Assembly: GCA_030684405.1 (NCBI GenBank) | Contig: JAUXYA010000024.1 | Coordinates: forward strand, 146,657 to 210,656 | DNA length: 64,000 nt | Source of the DNA: Burkholderiales bacterium | GTDB lineage: Bacteria; Pseudomonadota; Gammaproteobacteria; Burkholderiales; SG8-41 | Direction: 5' to 3' | Part shown: piece by piece, positions 1,083 through 18,254 of the stretch | How positions within the stretch are numbered: position 1 is the stretch's first letter | Layout: each line of letters starts with the position of its first letter | The notes under the pieces: generated by a model | What the model saw: only the letters and a program-made list of their open reading frames with translations | What the model was told of the DNA's origin: nothing | The model's database searches: none | Made by a program: the position numbers and the translations under genes

Positions 1083-1745
1083 TCAAGTAAACAATTCGAC
1101 GTCGCCGCTGGCAGGCGCCTGCGTGAGACGCTGGCGGTACTCGATTTCCCGCTCCATCAACGTGTCGTTATGCAGGCTGCGCAGCCGCTTCACCAGTACG
1201 CGGCCGTTGGCAGGAAAGTAGTACACTTTGCGCGGATGACCGGCAGCAAGATCGCGTGCTGCAATACGGATACCTTCCGTTTTCAGAAAACTTTCCACGA
1301 AAGCCGCGTTCTTGTGCCCGACATTGGCCTGCACCAGGCCGGGCAGCACATTACCGCCGCCAAATACCTTGGCTTCGAGGTTTTCTCGCCGCGCGCCGAG
1401 CTTGAGCAAATGCCCGATCAGTATTTCCATCGCGTAGGTACCGTAACGCGCACCCATCCCCCCGGTCCCCACCGCCTCGCTGTCCGGCAGCATAAAGTGA
1501 TTCATGCCGCCCATGCCCAGGCGCACATCGCGGATGCACGCCGCGACGCAGGAGCCGAGCACAGTGACAAGCAGCATGTCGCGCGTACTGACGAAATATT
1601 CTCCCGGCAGCAGCTTGGCAGCATCACGGCCATGGACGCGGTCGTGATAGAGATTGCGTGCGAAGCAGTCCTGCGCCGGCGAACTCGCCAGTTCGTCCGG
1701 CACCGAAGGTCGATTGCCGAGTACCTGACGAGCCCCGGAAATCAT
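1083..1745 (-). CDS. cheD: Chemoreceptor glutamine deamidase CheD
   Basis: CheD deamidates specific glutamines of chemoreceptors, helping receptor maturation and adaptation in the cytoplasm. The family motif is intact: [11 protein letters not shown] supplies the catalytic Cys66 and GGMNHFML the His83, with the usual 17-residue spacing. At 220 aa it carries an N-terminal extension of about 40 residues compared with minimal CheD. Its ATG overlaps the cheR stop by four bases (ATGA), so translation is probably coupled. The C-terminus ends GDVELFT, very like the tail of the CheZ-like protein at 8585-9163, which may be a shared docking peptide (inference). Confidence 0.95.
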
Positions 1746-2602
1746 CTGGCCTTGCTGCCACTGGCCAACCCGTACACCGTTTTCCCGCGCAGCCGGAACA
1801 GATGCGCCGCGTTATGAAAACTCTCCGAGTGCCCGGCAAACAGCAAACCGTCGCTGCGCATCAGTGGTGCAAACCGCTCCAGTATTGTCAACTGCGTGGG
1901 TTTGTCAAAATAGATCATGACGTTCCGGCAGAAAATAACGTCAAACAACCCGCGCATGGGCCAACTGTCCTCGAGCAGATTGATGCGACGGAACGTCACC
2001 AGATTACGCAATTCGTCGCGCACCCGGACCTTGCCGGCATTGGCGCCCGTGCCGCGCTTGAAAAATCGCTGGACGCGCTTGGGATCAAGCTTCTCAACAC
2101 GATCTTCACTGTACACACCGGTATGTGCCGTATCCAGGACATTGGTATCCACATCGCTGGCAAGAATGCGAACCGGTGGACTGAAGCTGCCGAAGGTCTC
2201 CACCGCAGTCATCGCAATAGAATAGGGCTCCTCGCCGGTGGAGGCCGCGGAACACCACACCGTTTGCGGGTGTGTTGCGCCCGCGCGCTGAATGTGCTCG
2301 GCGAAGATGGGGAAATGATGCGCTTCCCGGAAAAACGAGGTTAGATTTGTGGTCAGGGCATTGGTAAATGCTTCGCACTCCTCCGCATCGCCCGACTCGA
2401 CATGATCCAGATAGGCGCCGAAACTCTCCAGATCCAGTTGGCGCAACCTCCGAGAGAGCCTGCTGTAGACCATGTCGCGTTTCGCCGACGACAGGGAGAT
2501 GCCGGCATATCCGTAAATCAGCTTCCGAACGCGCTCGAAATCCCGATCGTCAAAATCGAAATCGCGGATGCGTGGTTGATCAACGGCCGCGGTATCAGTC
2601 AT
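1742..2602 (-). CDS. cheR: Chemotaxis protein methyltransferase CheR
   Basis: CheR is the SAM-dependent methyltransferase that methylates glutamates of chemoreceptors and opposes CheB. The 286 aa comprise an N-terminal helical domain (about residues 15-75) and a Rossmann methyltransferase domain with the SAM motif CSAASTGEEPYSIAM and the later VIFCRNVMIYFD. Length is normal. The start is the ATG at 2602; only a poor purine-rich stretch precedes it, and a 33-codon reading frame ending in the same ATGA lies directly upstream, so coupling is possible. The chemoreceptor at 3420-5459 ends DWQEF, which resembles the pentapeptide that tethers CheR and CheB. Confidence 0.95.
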   Translation of the reverse strand: MTDTAAVDQPRIRDFDFDDRDFERVRKLIYGYAGISLSSAKRDMVYSRLSRRLRQLDLESFGAYLDHVESGDAEECEAFTNALTTNLTSFFREAHHFPIFAEHIQRAGATHPQTVWCSAASTGEEPYSIAMTAVETFGSFSPPVRILASDVDTNVLDTAHTGVYSEDRVEKLDPKRVQRFFKRGTGANAGKVRVRDELRNLVTFRRINLLEDSWPMRGLFDVIFCRNVMIYFDKPTQLTILERFAPLMRSDGLLFAGHSESFHNAAHLFRLRGKTVYGLASGSKAR

Positions 2603-3419: not shown

Positions 3420-5459
3420 CTAGAACTCCTGCCAGTCGTCGTCACCACCAGCAACCTTCTTCGCCTTGGGCGCACTGGCAGCCAACCTCGCCCTGGCAGC
3501 ATGCACCTCTGCTGCAGGCGCCTTGGCAGCCGCTTTCGCCGGCAACCGCGCCACGTTGACCGGACGGCTAGGATTTCGGCGCTCCGCCCTGACCGTGCCT
3601 TCGCCCTGCGCCAGCTTGAACTGCGCCACCGACTGCACGAGGTTCCCTGCCTGCTCCTGCATGCTTTCCGCCGCCGCCGCCGCCTCCTCCACCAGCGCCG
3701 CATTCTGCTGCGTCACTTCGTCCATCTGCGTAATCGCCTGGTTTACCTGCTCGATACCCGAAGACTGTTCCTGCGAGGCCGCAGTGATCTCGGCCATGAT
3801 GTCGGTCACGCGCTTTACCGAGTTCACGATCTCTTCCATCGTTTTGCCTGCCTCGTCCACCAGACGTGAGCCGGCGTCTACCTTGCCTACGGAATCGGTA
3901 ATCAATTCCTTGATCTCCTTCGCCGCCGCAGCAGAACGCTGCGCCAGATTGCGCACTTCGGTGGCCACGACCGCAAAACCACGGCCTTGTTCTCCGGCAC
4001 GCGCCGCTTCCACCGCCGCATTCAACGCCAGGATGTTGGTCTGGAAGGCAATCCCGTCAATTACCGAAATGATGTCGGCAATCTTCTTGGACGATTGCGA
4101 GATTCCGTTCATCGTCGTCACAACCTCACCGACCACAGAGCCGCCTTTGACCGCCACATCCGAGGCCCCCACTGCCAATTGATTGGCCTGACGTGCGTTC
4201 TCGGCATTTTGCTTCACCGTCGAAGTCAGTTCTTCCATCGAAGAAGCGGTCTCTTCCAGTGAGCTTGCCTGCTCTTCGGTACGTTGCGACAGATCGGTGT
4301 TGCCCTGCGAGATCTCGCCGGAAGCCGTATTGATGGTCTCGGCAGCCTCCTTGATCTGGTTGATGATCTCCGTCAGATTATCCACCGTCTTGTTGGAGTC
4401 ATCCTTCAATTGACCGAAGGTGCCCTTGTAGTCGTTGGTAATCTTTTCGGTCAGGTCGCCCCTGGCCAGCGCGCTCAACACCCGTACCACCTCACTGAGA
4501 CCAATTTCGCTGGTCTGCATCAAACCGTTGATTCCTTCCGCCAGCACCTTGAAGAATCCCTCCTTGCCTTCCAGCGGCAGGCGCCTGGTAAAGTCGCCAT
4601 CGTTGGCGGCCTTGACGATGCCGGCCACCTCGTTTTCCGCCGCCACTTCAGCGGTACGGTCGCGCCACTCGACAACCGTACCTACGCGCGCACCCTTTTC
4701 GTCGAGTACCGGATTGGCGACCAGGCCGAAGTGCAAGTCTCCCACTTTGATCTGGGTCTTGTAGGTGCCGCGCAGATTTGCAAGCATGCCCTGCTGATGC
4801 GCCGGATTCTTGTGGAACGCATCGATGTTCTGGCCAATCAGGCGCCGGGCGTCAAACTGCGGCAACGACTTCCTCAACTCGGCCTCATTGCCAGCAAGCA
4901 TCGTGCTCACCGACTCGTTCATGTACACGATCTCGTTTTTGTCATTGGCGATCATCACATTGGTCGTGCACTTGTCCAGTGCATTCTTGATACGCAGGTT
5001 CTCTGCCGCGAGTTTCAGTTCGCGCTCGCGCGCCGCCAGCACTTCAGTCTGGTCATTCCACTCCACCACATAACCCAGGGACTCGCTGCTCTCGCCCAGA
5101 ATCGGGTTGACGATCAATGAAAACTTGCGCCCGCCAATTTCCAGGCCTGCCTTGTGCTGCCCCTTCAGATTCGCCAGCATGCCGCGCTGGTGCGCCGGAT
5201 TCTTGTGGAATACGTCGATGTTGGTTCCAATCACCTTGGCAGCGCTGAACTGCGGCAGCTGTTTTCGGATATCGCTTTCAGCCGCCTCCAGCATAGTGAC
5301 CAACGAATCGTTCGTATAAACGATGTTGAAGTCGGCATCCGCCAGCATCACGTTGGTCGCGACCACCTTGATCGCACCCAAGGCAAGCAACTGGCCATTC
5401 GAGTTTGAAGTTTTGACATCGCTCTTTACGGGTTTTGCGGATTTCTTTACGATTTTCAT
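3420..5459 (-). CDS. Soluble methyl-accepting chemotaxis protein with two PAS domains
   Basis: A 679-aa chemoreceptor without any transmembrane segment, so it is probably cytoplasmic. Two similar PAS domains follow a basic N-terminus (about 30-150 and 155-275); each contains the repeated phrase [17 protein letters not shown]. Then come one or two HAMP-like segments (about 275-390, with [11 protein letters not shown] and ARGDLTEKI) and the MCP signalling hairpin with tip [19 protein letters not shown]. The C-terminus DWQEF matches the xWxxF CheR/CheB docking peptide. Duplicate PAS domains suggest an intracellular redox, oxygen or small-molecule signal. It lies between cheW and the small peptide/globin pair, which would fit an aerotaxis-like role (inference). 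Confidence 0.93.
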
Positions 5460-5522: not shown

Positions 5523-6044
5523 TTATTGCACCGGACTGCCATCCATCAATGCCATGTCCGTGCTGCACATCAATTTCTCGATGTCGAGCAGGATCAGCAT
5601 GCGATTCTCGACTGTCCCGAGTCCGACGATGTGCTGCATGTCCAGAACTGTGCCGAATTGCGGCGCGGGACGTATCTGCTCGCCCGACAGCGTAATCACA
5701 TCGGATACCGCGTCCACCACCATGCCGACAACACGATTGGCCACATTCAGGATGATGACCACGGTGAGCGCGTTGTAATCCGCCTCGTCAAGCCCGAACT
5801 TGATGCGCATGTCAACGATCGGCACGATAGTTCCACGCAAATTGATCACCCCCTTGATGAAGTCCGGCGAGTTTGCGATCGTGGTTGGCTGTTCCCAGCC
5901 GCGTATTTCCTGCACCTTGAGGATTTCGATCCCGTATTCCTCTGCGCCAAGGCGAAAAGTCAGGAATTCGTTCGCTTGTTCCGAGGCGGCTATGGCAGAT
6001 GCTGCCGATGCGGTTTTGGTGTTTTGTTGAAGCATCATATGCAT
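5523..6044 (-). CDS. cheW: Chemotaxis coupling protein CheW
   Basis: CheW bridges chemoreceptors and CheA in signalling arrays. The 173-aa protein has a short Ala-rich lead and then the CheW fold: [21 protein letters not shown], the hallmark [20 protein letters not shown], and the closing [11 protein letters not shown]. Length is normal. It sits between cheA and mcp on the same strand, so it is in the core operon. MHMML gives several possible start codons within four residues; the first ATG at 6044 is used here. Confidence 0.95.
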
Positions 6045-6067: not shown

Positions 6068-8152
6068 TCAGGCGGCCTTGTCAAACCTGCTGTTCATCAA
6101 ACCTACGATATGGGCGACGTCCAGAATCATTGCCACGCGTCCATCACCCATGATGGTGGCGCCGGAAATGCCCGCCACTTTGCGGAAATTCGTCTCCAAG
6201 CTCTTGATGACCACCTGGTGCTGGCCGACGAGATCATCAACAAAAAGCGCCGTCTTGTTGCCTTCGGATTCCAGAATCACCAGGATGCCTTCCTCGCAAC
6301 GCAATTTTTCGCTTTGCATGCCAAATGCATCCGCCAGAGAGATCACCGGGAGATATTCACCACGCACCTCAACCACCTGGCCGCGCTGCGCAATGGTGCT
6401 GAGCGAATCAGCCTTCGGCTGCAGGGATTCGGCGATATAGCCCAAGGGAATAATGAATACTTCCTTGCCCACGCGTACCGACATGCCGTCAAGGATCGCG
6501 AGCGTCAACGGTAGCTTGATCGAGATTCGAGTGCCCGCATCAACCGCAGATTCAATTTCGACGCGCCCGCCCATTTCAGTTATGTTCCGCCGCACGACAT
6601 CCATGCCCACCCCGCGGCCGGAAACATCGGTAATTTTGTCCGCCGTGGAAAATCCGGCTTCGAAGATGAGCTGCCAGACTTCCTGATCGCTCATGGCATC
6701 GGAAACCGCCATGCCACGCTCCTTGGCCTTGGCCAGTATCTTGTCGCGATGCAAACCGCGCCCGTCATCAGCCACTTCGATGACAATCGTGCCGCCCTGA
6801 TGGTAAGCGCGCAGTGTCACGGTCCCCTTGCGGATCTTGCCCTTCGCCACGCGCTCGTCCGACGACTCGAGACCATGATCAAGACTGTTGCGCACCAGAT
6901 GTGTCAACGGATCGACAATGCGCTCGATCAATCCCTTGTCCAGTTCCGTACCCTCGCCGACGGTAACCAGGTCGACCTCCTTGCCGAGCTTCGCCGCGAC
7001 ATCGCGCACCACACGCGGAAACCTGCTGAATGCAACCGACATGGGCATCATGCGGATCGACATCGCGGACTCCTGCAGATCCCGCGTATTGCGTTCAAGC
7101 GTCGCCAAGCCGTTAAACAGGGCCTCATAAAGCACCGGGTCAGACTTGGAGGCCGTCTGGGCAAGCATTGCCTGAGTGATCACCAGCTCGCCAACAAGGT
7201 TGATGAGTTGGTCCACCTTCTCGACACTGACACGAATTGACGCCGTATCGCCGCTGGCCGCTACCGCAGGTTTCGCCGCACCTTTCACGGCAACGACACT
7301 GCCTTCGGTTTTCTTTGCACTTTCCGGGTCCGGCTGGTTGACCGGCAGTGCCTCGGGGTCCACAAACAAGCCGAAATTATGGTCTGCCTGCGGCGACACC
7401 GAAGACCCGGCAGACGGGGATACCTCCGTTGCCGGCACCTCGGTTTTACCGGTTTCTGCCGCAACGATTTTGACTCGCGCCGGATCAGCCATGAATGCAA
7501 TGGCGTCCGTCAAATCCGTAGCGTTGACTTCGGTAACAATCCGAAACCTCCGCTCGGCAACAGGCCCTTGCGATTCAACCTTGATCTCCTCGACGCATCC
7601 AAAATCCTTGAGATCGGCAACGACACAGTCCACCGATGCGGCGGTGAATTTTTCGTCCAACGGCCCGAAGACGAGTTCCAGTACTGGCCCGCCGGAGGGC
7701 GCCGCAGCGGACGTCTGGTCGCCGGTTCCGCCAGCAACCGGCCCCAGAAAAGCACGCAACCGCGCGCATAACCCGGTGACCTCCGCTTCGGGCACCCCGG
7801 AACCGCCGGTTTTCAGAGCCAGAAGCATGGATTTCAGCATGTCGCCGGAAGCGAGGAATGTATCCACCAACGCAGTTGACAGAGGCATATGCCCTTTGCG
7901 TACACGGTCGAACACCGTCTCCATCTCGTGCGTCAGTTCGGTAACACCGGTGAAACCAAAGGTGGCAGCCCCGCCCTTGATGGAATGCGCAGCGCGGAAG
8001 ATCGCATTCAACTGCTCGTCATCTGCCGTGGCAATATCAATGCTGAGCAACAACGCCTCCATCGCGTCCAGGTGCTCGGCGGCCTCGTCAAAGAACAGAC
8101 CGTGCAATTCAGCGAAATCGAAATCGCTGTCGGCTGAGGATTCGTTGCTCAT
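6068..8152 (-). CDS. cheA: Chemotaxis histidine kinase CheA
   Basis: CheA autophosphorylates in response to receptors and passes phosphate to CheY and CheB. The 694 aa read as P1 HPt (His56 in AAHSIKGG), a P2-like ferredoxin-fold segment (about 150-230), a linker, P3 dimerisation, P4 ATPase with N box [11 protein letters not shown]1 VADDGRG and G2 GRGVGMDVV, and the C-terminal CheW-like P5 ending in DVAHIVGLM. All catalytic motifs are intact. Neighbours are cheY upstream and cheW downstream, so this is the core kinase of the locus. Confidence 0.97.
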
Positions 8153-8197: not shown

Positions 8198-8563
8198 TCA
8201 GCCAATGACTTTTTTGACAATATCCACCAGACCTTGCGGGGCGAACGGCTTGACCAGCCAGCCGGTCGCGCCCGCGGCGCGGCCCTTGGTTTTCATCTCG
8301 CTGCTCGATTCGGTGGTCAACACAAGAATCGGCACGTTCCTGTATTCCGCCATGCCCCGCAACGAGCGGATCATGGTCAGCCCATCCATTCGCGGCATGT
8401 TCTGATCGGTCAGCACCAGATTGATCTGGCGGCCCTTGGCTCGCTCCAGACCATCCTGCCCGTCCACGGCTTCGATCACGTCATAGCCTGCGCCCGTCAA
8501 GGTGAAATGAACCATCTTCCGGATCGAAGCCGAGTCATCCACCGCCAGTATTGTTTTTGCCAT
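8198..8563 (-). CDS. cheY: Response regulator CheY (copy adjacent to cheA)
   Basis: A 121-aa single receiver domain. Phospho-acceptor is Asp53 in LTDQNMPRMDG, the acidic pocket is AVDDSAS, the switch Thr lies in LVLTTESS and the conserved Lys in WLVKPF. It is located directly before cheA, the position of the CheY-type regulators found in cheA-cheW operons. It differs clearly from the second CheY at 9871-10257, so the operon encodes two single-domain regulators. One may drive the motor and the other act as a phosphate sink or serve another output; which is which cannot be told from sequence alone, although the 9871-10257 copy looks more like enterobacterial CheY. Confidence 0.9.
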   Translation of the reverse strand: MAKTILAVDDSASIRKMVHFTLTGAGYDVIEAVDGQDGLERAKGRQINLVLTDQNMPRMDGLTMIRSLRGMAEYRNVPILVLTTESSSEMKTKGRAAGATGWLVKPFAPQGLVDIVKKVIG

Positions 8564-8584: not shown

Positions 8585-9163
8585 CTAAAACAATTCGACC
8601 GAACCGCCGGTCATGCATGCCTGCCCGACTGGACCCGTGTGCTGATCGCACGTGGTGTCGGCAACCGCGGCCGTGAGTTCGTCGACAGACACTTCCGGCA
8701 GGCGACCCAGCAATTCCGCTATTTTCTCGAGCAATTCAATACGCTGTGCGGCATGACCGACCAGCTGGGTCGCCATGTCCTGAAACTGCAGCGCGCTGAC
8801 CGCGTTGCTCACTGCAAGTTCGATCTCCCCGCCAGCGGCATCAAGTCCGTCCGGCACTGATTCGCGACGATTCTTTGCAAAAGTCCCGATCACATCGAAG
8901 CTCGTCATCAGCCGCGCAGATGCGTCATCGATCAGGGAGCGCAGACGACCCAGTTCCAGGCGGGCGCTGCGCGACTGGGATTCGTGGATCTCGATGAAGC
9001 GCGCGATAAACACCCGGGCATCTTCTCCGCGCCGCCGTATCTGCTGGTGGCCTGCATGCATCACTTCAGTCCGCTCCCGTTGGGTCGAAATTCCATCAAT
9101 TCCGCAGTATTGTTGTGCATCACATACAGCTGCCATGTGCGGATTACGCCTTGAAATCAGCAT
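8585..9163 (-). CDS. CheZ-like helical protein with a DxxxQ motif; candidate second CheY phosphatase
   Basis: A 192-aa mostly helical protein that I do not recognise as a named family. Its best feature is SALQFQDMATQLV (Asp129 and Gln133), which aligns with the catalytic LAQDFHDLTGQVI of the neighbouring CheZ; DxxxQ is the CheY-dephosphorylating motif of CheZ. The C-terminus is GGSVELF. The ATG at 9163 is preferred because it follows a GGGGAA ribosome site and avoids overlap with cheZ; an upstream in-frame ATG at 9214 would overlap cheZ by 32 bases. It lies between cheZ and cheY, as expected for a phosphatase or CheY-binding protein. The phosphatase role is inference. Confidence 0.75.
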   Translation of the reverse strand: MLISRRNPHMAAVCDAQQYCGIDGISTQRERTEVMHAGHQQIRRRGEDARVFIARFIEIHESQSRSARLELGRLRSLIDDASARLMTSFDVIGTFAKNRRESVPDGLDAAGGEIELAVSNAVSALQFQDMATQLVGHAAQRIELLEKIAELLGRLPEVSVDELTAAVADTTCDQHTGPVGQACMTGGSVELF

Positions 9164-9182
9164 CAATTCCCCGTTCTGCCGG

Positions 9183-9869
9183 TTAGAACCCCAGGCTTTC
9201 AAGCAGATCATCAACCTGCCTCTGATCGGTCACCACGTCATCCCGCCCCTGCCCGTTGATCACCGGCCCGGCCAGCGTGGCTTCAAGCACCTCCTTGCGC
9301 TGGGCGGGCGGACTGGCGTCGAGCAGCAGTTTGACCAGTTGATCTTCCAGTGACTGGGCAAGACGGGTAACACGCTGGATGACCTGCCCGGTCAGGTCAT
9401 GGAAATCCTGTGCAAGCATGATTTCGGTCAGGTTGCCGTCGACCTGCACAAGCCGAGCCTGCGTGCGGATGAAATGGCTCTGTGTTTCGCGGCCCAGTTC
9501 CCACATGGCGCGCGGATCCGGATAGCTGCCCAGCAGCGCAGCCCACTTCGCCTCCATTGCCAGGGACTCCGTCCGTATAGAGTCCTGAACGGCCTTGGCA
9601 CGCTCCGAGGCATCAAGTACGCGCTCCGCAGCCTTGCCGGTCAGATTGGCAATGTAATCGAGCCGCGCCCGGGCATCAGGCAACGATCCCACTGCCGCCT
9701 CAACGCCCTTGTCATAACCCAATTGGCGCAGGGTATCGTGCAGATTGCGGGTGAGCATGCCGATCCGCACAAATACATCATGCACGGATAATTTCTCTTG
9801 CTCCTTGGCGCCGGCCTCAATGATTTCGACATCGGCGCTTCGGCGGTTCTCCATGGCGGATGCCGTCAT
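9183..9869 (-). CDS. cheZ: CheY-P phosphatase CheZ
   Basis: CheZ dephosphorylates CheY-P and so ends the tumble/reversal signal. The 228-aa protein has a long helical hairpin with the catalytic motif LAQDFHDLTGQVIQRV (Asp158, Gln162), a flexible linker and the C-terminal CheY-binding peptide VDDLLESLGF. All key features are present and the length is normal. It follows cheY by one base and precedes the CheZ-like gene. Confidence 0.96.
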   Translation of the reverse strand: MTASAMENRRSADVEIIEAGAKEQEKLSVHDVFVRIGMLTRNLHDTLRQLGYDKGVEAAVGSLPDARARLDYIANLTGKAAERVLDASERAKAVQDSIRTESLAMEAKWAALLGSYPDPRAMWELGRETQSHFIRTQARLVQVDGNLTEIMLAQDFHDLTGQVIQRVTRLAQSLEDQLVKLLLDASPPAQRKEVLEATLAGPVINGQGRDDVVTDQRQVDDLLESLGF

Positions 9870-9870
9870 A

Positions 9871-10257
9871 TCACGCCCCTTTCTTCAGTATCTTGGCCAA
9901 CTTCTCCTCCAGCGTGGCCTTGGTGAAAGGTTTGACGATATAGCCTGATGCTCCGGCCTGCGCAGCAGTAATGATGTCTTCCTTCTTCGCCTCGGCGGTA
10001 ACCATCAATACCGGGAGCGCCTTTAACGCATCATCGGCGCGGATCTGCTTCAGCAATTCAAAGCCATTCATGTTCGGCATGTTGACGTCCGACACCACGA
10101 AATCAAAGGGATTGGCCCGCAGCTTAACGAGTGCATCCTGCCCGTCTTCGGCTTCATCCGCATTCTGGTGGCCGATCTCCTTGAGGAGATTGCGTACAAT
10201 CCGCCGCATGGTCGCGAAATCATCCACGATCAAAAACTTGATTTCAGAGGTACTCAT
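9871..10257 (-). CDS. cheY: Chemotaxis response regulator CheY (copy adjacent to cheZ)
   Basis: A 128-aa receiver protein very close to classical Che[21 protein letters not shown], phospho-acceptor Asp57 in [12 protein letters not shown], Thr in VLMVTAEAK, and [14 protein letters not shown]. It should bind FliM when phosphorylated and switch rotation. The ATG at 10257 (MSTSE) has a GTGGAG ribosome site; an in-frame ATG four codons earlier (10269) is less well placed. It is the first gene of the chemotaxis operon, with a candidate sigma-28 promoter 70-95 bases upstream. Confidence 0.95.
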
Positions 10258-17626: not shown

Positions 17627-18254
17627 CTACGCCTCGTCGCGGGATACGCAATCGATCTTCTCGGTGATCTCACAACCGAGCCTCAATGCACGCTCGGACT
17701 GCTCGCGCAGCCTGCGCAGCAGGGTTTCAGCAGCATCGTTGGCAGCACTCATGCAGCCCTGTATCTCGATCGTCACCGCCGCCGCCTCAAGCAAAGCATG
17801 TTGCAGAGACCCCGCATCGGGGCCGGCGGAATCCTCTCCATGTGTCGCCATCAAATGCGCCTGGAATGCCAACTCGTCGATCATGCTGGCCACGCAGATG
17901 ACATCCGCCGCGTTCAGTTCCGCCTGGCGCACCAGCAGCGGGGCACTGGAAATAAGGTCGCGGCACGCACCCTGCAGAGTCTCCGCGATCAGCCGCACGT
18001 CACGCGCCTTATGCAGCAACAAACCGGCCTTGCCAGAAGCCTGCACTGCCGCGGACCTGCGAAAATCGCAAAAAAAGATGTTGCCGGCGACGACGGTGGA
18101 ATGCTTCATGCGCTCCGCCATCGCATCATCTTTGCGCCGCAGCCGCGGGCGGATCCCCGGGAGCCATCGCGCGGGCACACAAGGCCGCGACGACTCCGCA
18201 TATGCCTGCTGCCGCAGCCCCAATGATCGCAGCATTTGAATTACTCTTTGACAT
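17627..18254 (-). pseudogene. Degenerate, apparently frameshifted membrane-anchored chemoreceptor-like gene
   Basis: Two overlapping minus-strand frames look like one gene. The first starts at the ATG at 18254 (GGAAGG...GGGAAG upstream), encodes MSKSNSNAAIIGAAAAG with one clear transmembrane helix (residues 8-27), and stops at TGA 18128-18126. The second, one base out of frame, continues to 17627; it contains MIDELAFQAHLMA, very close to the chemoreceptor tip IDEIAFQTNLLALNA, then a helical stretch ending near the stop. A single +1 shift near 18126 would join them into a roughly 208-aa TM-anchored minimal receptor. The tip has lost [11 protein letters not shown]. Alternatives: two coupled genes (ATG at 18109) or an assembly error. 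Confidence 0.5.

Follow-up and report, generated by a model that had tools for sequence, protein, structure and literature searches.

A standalone protein with a CheZ-like motif, encoded between cheZ and a second cheY, and its putative kinship with a module of McpA-like chemoreceptors

The chemotaxis locus

The window, that is the whole stretch of 64,000 nucleotides of Burkholderiales DNA that was analysed, contains a chemotaxis locus with the minus-strand order cheY1-cheZ-X-cheY2-cheA, followed by cheW, a PAS receptor gene, cheR and an ORF that is taken here, from gene order, to be a probable cheD (Table 1). X stands for an unnamed protein of 192 aa. A first-pass annotation had pointed out that X and the adjacent CheZ both carry the DxxxQ pattern of CheZ and that their genes lie between two cheY genes. 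The ORF list and the Pfam and NCBIfam scans confirm the two genes at the coordinates and in the arrangement given (cheY1-cheZ-X-cheY2), the neighbour of X is a true CheZ (PF04344), as had been stated, and the residue numbers given for the two motifs, Asp129/Gln133 in X and Asp158/Gln162 in CheZ, are correct. A further ORF of 202 aa (17627-18235, minus strand), without Pfam or NCBIfam match, resembles by eye a decayed receptor hairpin tip.

Table 1. Genes and sequence features of the locus, with their positions in the window
Feature	Position	Strand	Basis
X, unnamed 192-aa CheZ-like standalone protein	8585..9163	-	ORF; 28 standalone relatives aligned
X helix 1, conserved part, residues 62-91 with A81, L85, F89	8891..8980	-	alignment; helix in model
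X motif L125-QFQDMATQ133 with D129 and Q133	8765..8791	-	conservation, CheZ profile alignment
X conserved C-terminal tail GPVGQACMTGGSVELF, residues 177-192	8588..8635	-	alignment; low model confidence
cheZ, canonical CheY phosphatase	9183..9869	-	PF04344 E 6.6e-63
CheZ catalytic F156-x-D158-x-x-x-Q162	9384..9404	-	sequence
cheY1, flagellar-type CheY	9871..10257	-	NF007901 213.9 bits, cut-off 189
cheY2, second single-domain receiver, likely partner of X	8198..8563	-	PF00072 E 6e-25; adjoins X, also in many relatives
cheA	6068..8152	-	Hpt, H-kinase_dim, HATPase_c, CheW domains
cheW	5523..6044	-	PF01584
chemoreceptor with PAS domains and HAMP	3420..5459	-	domain scan
cheR	1742..2602	-	domain scan
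probable cheD	1083..1745	-	ORF; name from gene order

Conservation of the motif and of the C-terminal tail

The motif of X runs from L125 over Q126, F127, Q128 and D129, followed by M, A and T, to Q133. With the Asp residues aligned, X and CheZ have A, F, D and Q in common (A-x-x-F-x-D-x-x-x-Q), so that of the four positions previously said to align, Phe, Asp and the second Gln do, but the first Gln does not, since Q126 of X lies opposite D155 of CheZ. DxxxQ alone is weak evidence, because about 0.44 occurrences per 192 aa are expected by chance, as judged from 640 ORFs with a match to CheA, CheW, CheR, CheD or CheY in the fetched loci; the longer pattern FxD[LMIV]xxQ[LMIV] occurs 0 times in the 233,894 aa of these 640 ORFs.

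Its conservation in the relatives turns this weak signature into a strong one. Across X and 28 standalone relatives with 21-53% identity to it, eight alignment columns do not vary (L, Q, F, D, Q, G, L and F). The pattern [LM]QFxDxxxQ is present in 40/40 family proteins from 40 loci of the same order, and D and Q in 41/41, a more distant group included, from 40 loci of the class-level search, both sets of loci having been chosen by hand from the listed matches and many of the genomes being related. D and Q are still invariant in alignment A4, which comprises standalone and long forms from both proteobacterial groups, and the residue preceding D varies within the family (Q, E, G, H, A or Y). Among chemoreceptors, QFxDxxxQ is found in 52/52 of the X-type as compared with 0/102 ordinary ones. 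DxxxQ is therefore conserved in the homologues, as the first-pass annotation presupposed, where this conservation of D and Q rests on matches from sequence and profile searches, from which the motif check removed no row. The family letter counts (146 rows) were taken once a motif filter had been applied. Of 505 confirmed stretches, the named-genome set comprises the best 80, found with a search pattern (LQF[QE]D) that fixes D by construction.

The tail of X, which ends GSVELF, lies within a conserved family tail with the consensus PVxQxxMxxGxIELF, which is common to the standalone and the long forms and about as conserved as the QFxD motif. The C-terminal CheY-binding peptide of CheZ, DDLLxSLGF, is absent from X. 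The earlier description of a protein that lacks the CheZ peptide and ends in VELF is accurate to that extent, but the tail is not merely absent, since VELF is part of a conserved one. The X tail may resemble the CheY-binding peptide of FliM. In P. aeruginosa McpA a valine occupies the second of the last five positions, according to the excerpt available of PMC7184735, as it does in SVELF of X. One standalone relative in a Burkholderiales MAG (L200, 5770-6156) has an early frame end and no tail, owing to natural loss or a sequencing error, and still precedes cheY2-cheA.

Distribution and two architectures

Relatives of X were detected in 111/300 genomes of the same order (E<=0.01), and the profiles A3 and A4 matched 103/369 genomes of the class (E<=1e-4) and 91/299 genomes of the phylum, respectively. 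Closer to the window, a match is present in 9/40 genomes of its own taxonomic family and absent from all six other searched genomes of its genus, in three of which (the three covered by the CheZ search) CheZ is absent too. A tblastn search of X against plasmids gave no match at E<=0.01. Long-form X with cheY2-cheA also occurs in a Geoalkalibacter MAG (L179) and a Nitrospirae MAG (L180), which are labelled as belonging to other phyla, by transfer or binning error.

The family comprises two architectures, namely standalone proteins of mostly ~120-210 residues and long receptor forms of mostly ~330-460. Most relatives are chemoreceptors of ~400 aa with the receptor hairpin inside the X module, such that the KQTNLLALNAAIEAARAGE hairpin follows the first conserved helix and precedes the QFxD helix. 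In BLAST comparisons of X with 10 long forms, two clear blocks were obtained for two of them (L063 and L064). In L064, residues 63-117 of X match residues 121-178 (E 2.8e-6) and residues 106-192 match residues 334-428 (E 1e-11), so that the blocks that abut in X lie ~155 residues apart in the receptor; L063 is alike. Both forms exist within the taxonomic family of the window, and standalone loci with motif and tail retained were found in Janthinobacterium, Duganella, Herbaspirillum and Undibacterium. A tree of 109 columns and 146 rows (the 162 family rows and the window, minus cut-off, ambiguous and duplicate rows) requires six changes between the standalone and the long form, and a single standalone clade is not rejected (p-AU 0.637).

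By genus, gene order and description, the long forms appear to be the McpA-like receptors of F7 systems, and X is, judged from its sequence, the standalone form of a module that these receptors carry. The finding is more general than the first-pass annotation had it, in that X belongs to a widespread family, often within odd chemoreceptors.

Comparison with CheZ

X has no Pfam match over the cut-off, no NCBIfam match and no match to a CheZ model at E<=10; the weak Pfam matches to Yuri_gagarin and Vta1_C lie below the cut-off and were rejected as identities. Across 29 family members, PF04344 is touched by two (best E 0.012, below the cut-off) and NF041271 by one (E 0.036). On these sequence criteria X is not a member of the CheZ family, and it should not be filed as CheZ, because it fails both the family models and the comparison of the tails.

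Profile comparison nevertheless sets the two proteins side by side. When A1 was aligned with 35 CheZ sequences by hhalign (score 31.2, probability 40%), FQDMATQ was placed on FQDLTGQ with D and Q in register, as compared with 21.7 for the best of 100 column shuffles, 19.0 for the best of 100 heptad-phase shuffles and 16.4 for reversed CheZ. The C-terminal set of 81 sequences scored 26.2 (probability 31%), against 18.3, 19.8 and 15.4 in the same controls, and the arms of 50 X-type receptors scored 26.3 (probability 14%) as compared with 14.3 for those of 80 ordinary receptors. The profile comparison with CheZ that the first-pass annotation had suggested thus pairs D and Q of X with those of CheZ, at a score above 200 shuffled controls. 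Since the probabilities are 14-40% and the aligned stretches span 28-56 columns, convergence instead of homology is possible.

Profile A3, searched against all PDB sequences, gave five matches at E<=10, in which E. coli CheZ (E 0.068) is matched over residues 135-167, the catalytic stretch; the others are two Tako8 entries, matched in a repeated short stretch only, and two coiled-coil designs, so that, judged by name, CheZ is the only natural protein among the five. In the lists obtained with A1 and A4, CheZ ranks 6th of 14 (E 0.36) and 16th of 24 (E 1.5), respectively, and is surrounded by helical and designed proteins.

X alone is predicted to fold as a helical hairpin. The AlphaFold2 model, based on alignment A5 (58 rows, of which one is the window and 57 were taken from a set of 81 family rows), has helices at residues 28-96 and 105-153, a short helix at 160-175 and then a loosely structured tail (pLDDT 75.8, pTM 0.49). 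A Foldseek search of this model against the PDB returned no match at E<=0.001, and CheZ is not among the 50 matches listed out of 200. By comparison, a control model of CheZ built from three sequences (pLDDT 57.6) found 1kmi with E 2.5e-7 and 33% identity, which indicates that the search leans on sequence, since the poorer model recovers 1kmi at this identity. As to the fold check proposed earlier, the predicted hairpin is compatible with a CheZ-type fold, but CheZ was not retrieved from the PDB with the model of X, so that such a fold is no more than possible.

Gene neighbourhood

The nearest downstream che-type gene encodes a receiver for 128/162 family genes, as compared with 2/102 ordinary receptors of the same loci. 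These counts cover three locus sets and consider only genes matching che references within 700 bases; contig ends or split frames truncate part of the rows, and the genomes include many related ones. The receiver is a single-domain protein in 113/162 and a larger receiver-containing gene in 15; among the other 34 family genes, 25 have no such gene, three lie at contig ends and six are followed by another che gene. None of the 162 family rows of these three sets has cheZ adjoining X. A locus fetched later from the taxonomic family of the window (L256) has the order cheZ-X-cheY2-cheA, the same as the window.

Of the 111 X-bearing genomes among the 300, 106 also contain CheZ, which rules X out as a replacement of CheZ and indicates that it adds to it. 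Of the earlier suggestions, that of two regulator/phosphatase pairs is still the best interpretation, and the homologues make it more specific: X accompanies CheY2, encoded on the cheA side, and not cheZ. The first-pass annotation had noticed neither the receptor-borne module nor that the C-terminus of X is a conserved tail. In several gammaproteobacterial loci (L134-L149, L202, L216 and L241) the long form is located near a receiver-containing protein of ~510-650 residues, which may be the serine phosphatase known from descriptions of F7 clusters and is a possible alternative partner of X.

Proposed function and alternatives

In E. coli CheZ, D143 and Q147 orient the water molecule that attacks the phospho-aspartate. 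X probably works like CheZ, and its sequence is best read as that of a CheZ-like phosphatase, or at least a binder, dedicated to CheY2. X would form an antiparallel helical hairpin, two of which presumably dimerise to a four-helix bundle. D129 and Q133, located on the second helix, would do for CheY2 what D143 and Q147 do in CheZ, and CheY2 would be held by the flexible, conserved tail with its VELF end. In the majority of relatives this module is split by an inserted receptor hairpin, which would give an McpA-like chemoreceptor-phosphatase, and X is the module without the receptor. The motif, its conservation, the architecture, the gene order and the profile similarity to CheZ are observed and the hairpin is predicted; we infer the dimerisation, the catalysis, the partner and the role of the tail. 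We consider it fairly probable that X, as a soluble CheZ-like protein, accelerates the loss of phosphate from CheY2, the receiver encoded directly downstream, with CheZ serving CheY1. The CheY1 of C. testosteroni, which by locus number lies beside cheA, loses its phosphate fast unaided, as stated in the portion available of PMC6391922, so that a phosphatase may not be needed in this organism.

The most serious alternative, although unlikely, is that X binds CheY2-P through the tail and the helix without catalysis, as an adaptor or localiser near an array, with Asp and Gln used for docking. This would agree with a tail conserved about as well as the motif and with the long form being a receptor, given that McpA-like receptors are placed in F6 arrays (PMC7184735, PMC9855816; available sections), whereas the invariant D and Q four apart on a helix, preceded by a variable residue before D, suit catalysis, and the profile alignment sets them on the catalytic pair of CheZ. 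Less likely still, X could act together with CheZ on the flagellar CheY1, for example as a heterodimer or as a regulator of CheZ; cheZ and X adjoin in the window and in L256 from the same taxonomic family, and 106/111 X genomes have CheZ, but the 162 family rows, which do not include L256, have no cheZ beside X, and X adjoins cheY2-cheA instead. That X is a functionless remnant of an McpA-like receptor minus its signalling hairpin, as the presence of both forms in one taxonomic family and the two blocks ~155 residues apart in L063 and L064 would allow, is very improbable given that the motif and the tail are kept by standalone forms of many lineages (the 28 aligned relatives and the four genera named above).

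Beyond the reading of X as a phosphatase or binder of CheY2, it is conceivable, albeit doubtful, that the McpA-like receptors are themselves receptor-phosphatases, with a CheZ-like site in the helical bundle and the signalling hairpin at the turn of the CheZ-like hairpin. If so, the receptor-phosphatase would supply the missing off-switch for the F7 CheY and explain the conserved C-terminus of McpA, which is called "unclear" in the available text of PMC7184735. The same source describes, as far as it is available, that at stages 1-2 the F7 and F6 clusters both contain cheY and only F6 contains cheZ, and that mcpA was lost at stage 3 and the F7 cheY finally lost only in stage 5; because they were lost at different stages, mcpA and the F7 cheY are not strictly tied. 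McpA-like receptors associate with the F6 array (PMC7184735, in part) and Shewanella McpA clusters with CheA3 (PMC9855816, in part). Since these receptors are reported in the F6 flagellar array, control across arrays would then be possible, so that the signal of one array would set the decay of the messenger of another pathway. A CheZ-like module in the C-terminus of McpA would be a new way of wiring two chemosensory pathways, and X would be its simplest form, freed from the receptor. A search of open-access papers gave no description of a CheZ-like module in receptors among the papers listed.

Relation to known systems

With CheZ (PF04344; E. coli, PDB 1kmi), X has in common a predicted hairpin whose second helix bears F-x-D-x-x-x-Q, a flexible linker, a C-terminal Phe and an adjoining cheY. 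It differs in that it matches no family model, has another conserved tail and little similarity beyond the motif helix, and that its neighbour is the cheA-side CheY2.

The McpA-like F7 receptors, to which the long forms are likened by description, include McpA/CttP of P. aeruginosa (PA0180), VCA1088 of V. cholerae and SO_2117 of S. oneidensis. In the Pseudomonas loci L202, L216, L241 and L242 the long form precedes cheY-cheA-cheW, either directly or with a receiver-containing gene of ~600 residues intervening, and these gene orders fit the published mcpA order; the motif helix and the tail are common with X. Unlike these receptors, X has no receptor hairpin, no MCPsignal match and, by reading of the sequence, no membrane segment.

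A more distant group of ~400-aa receptors (L151-L164 and L258, one of them in the taxonomic family of the window) has mostly QFQDRxxQ and ends such as FF or ITFF, and its genes lie mostly directly before cheY and cheA. The V. cholerae receptors VC1394 and VCA1088 have the same topology, the gene of each belongs with a che cluster, and little is known of them according to the part available of PMC7534058. The link of L151-L164 to the 24H-type F9 receptors, represented by VC1394 with its McpA topology (PMC7534058, in part), is by description only: like VC1394 they are receptors of ~400 aa, mostly with QFQDRxxQ and an FF end, and 12 of the 14 listed are located right before a cheY-like gene, whereas in most of them the tail, unlike that of X, diverges from IELF.
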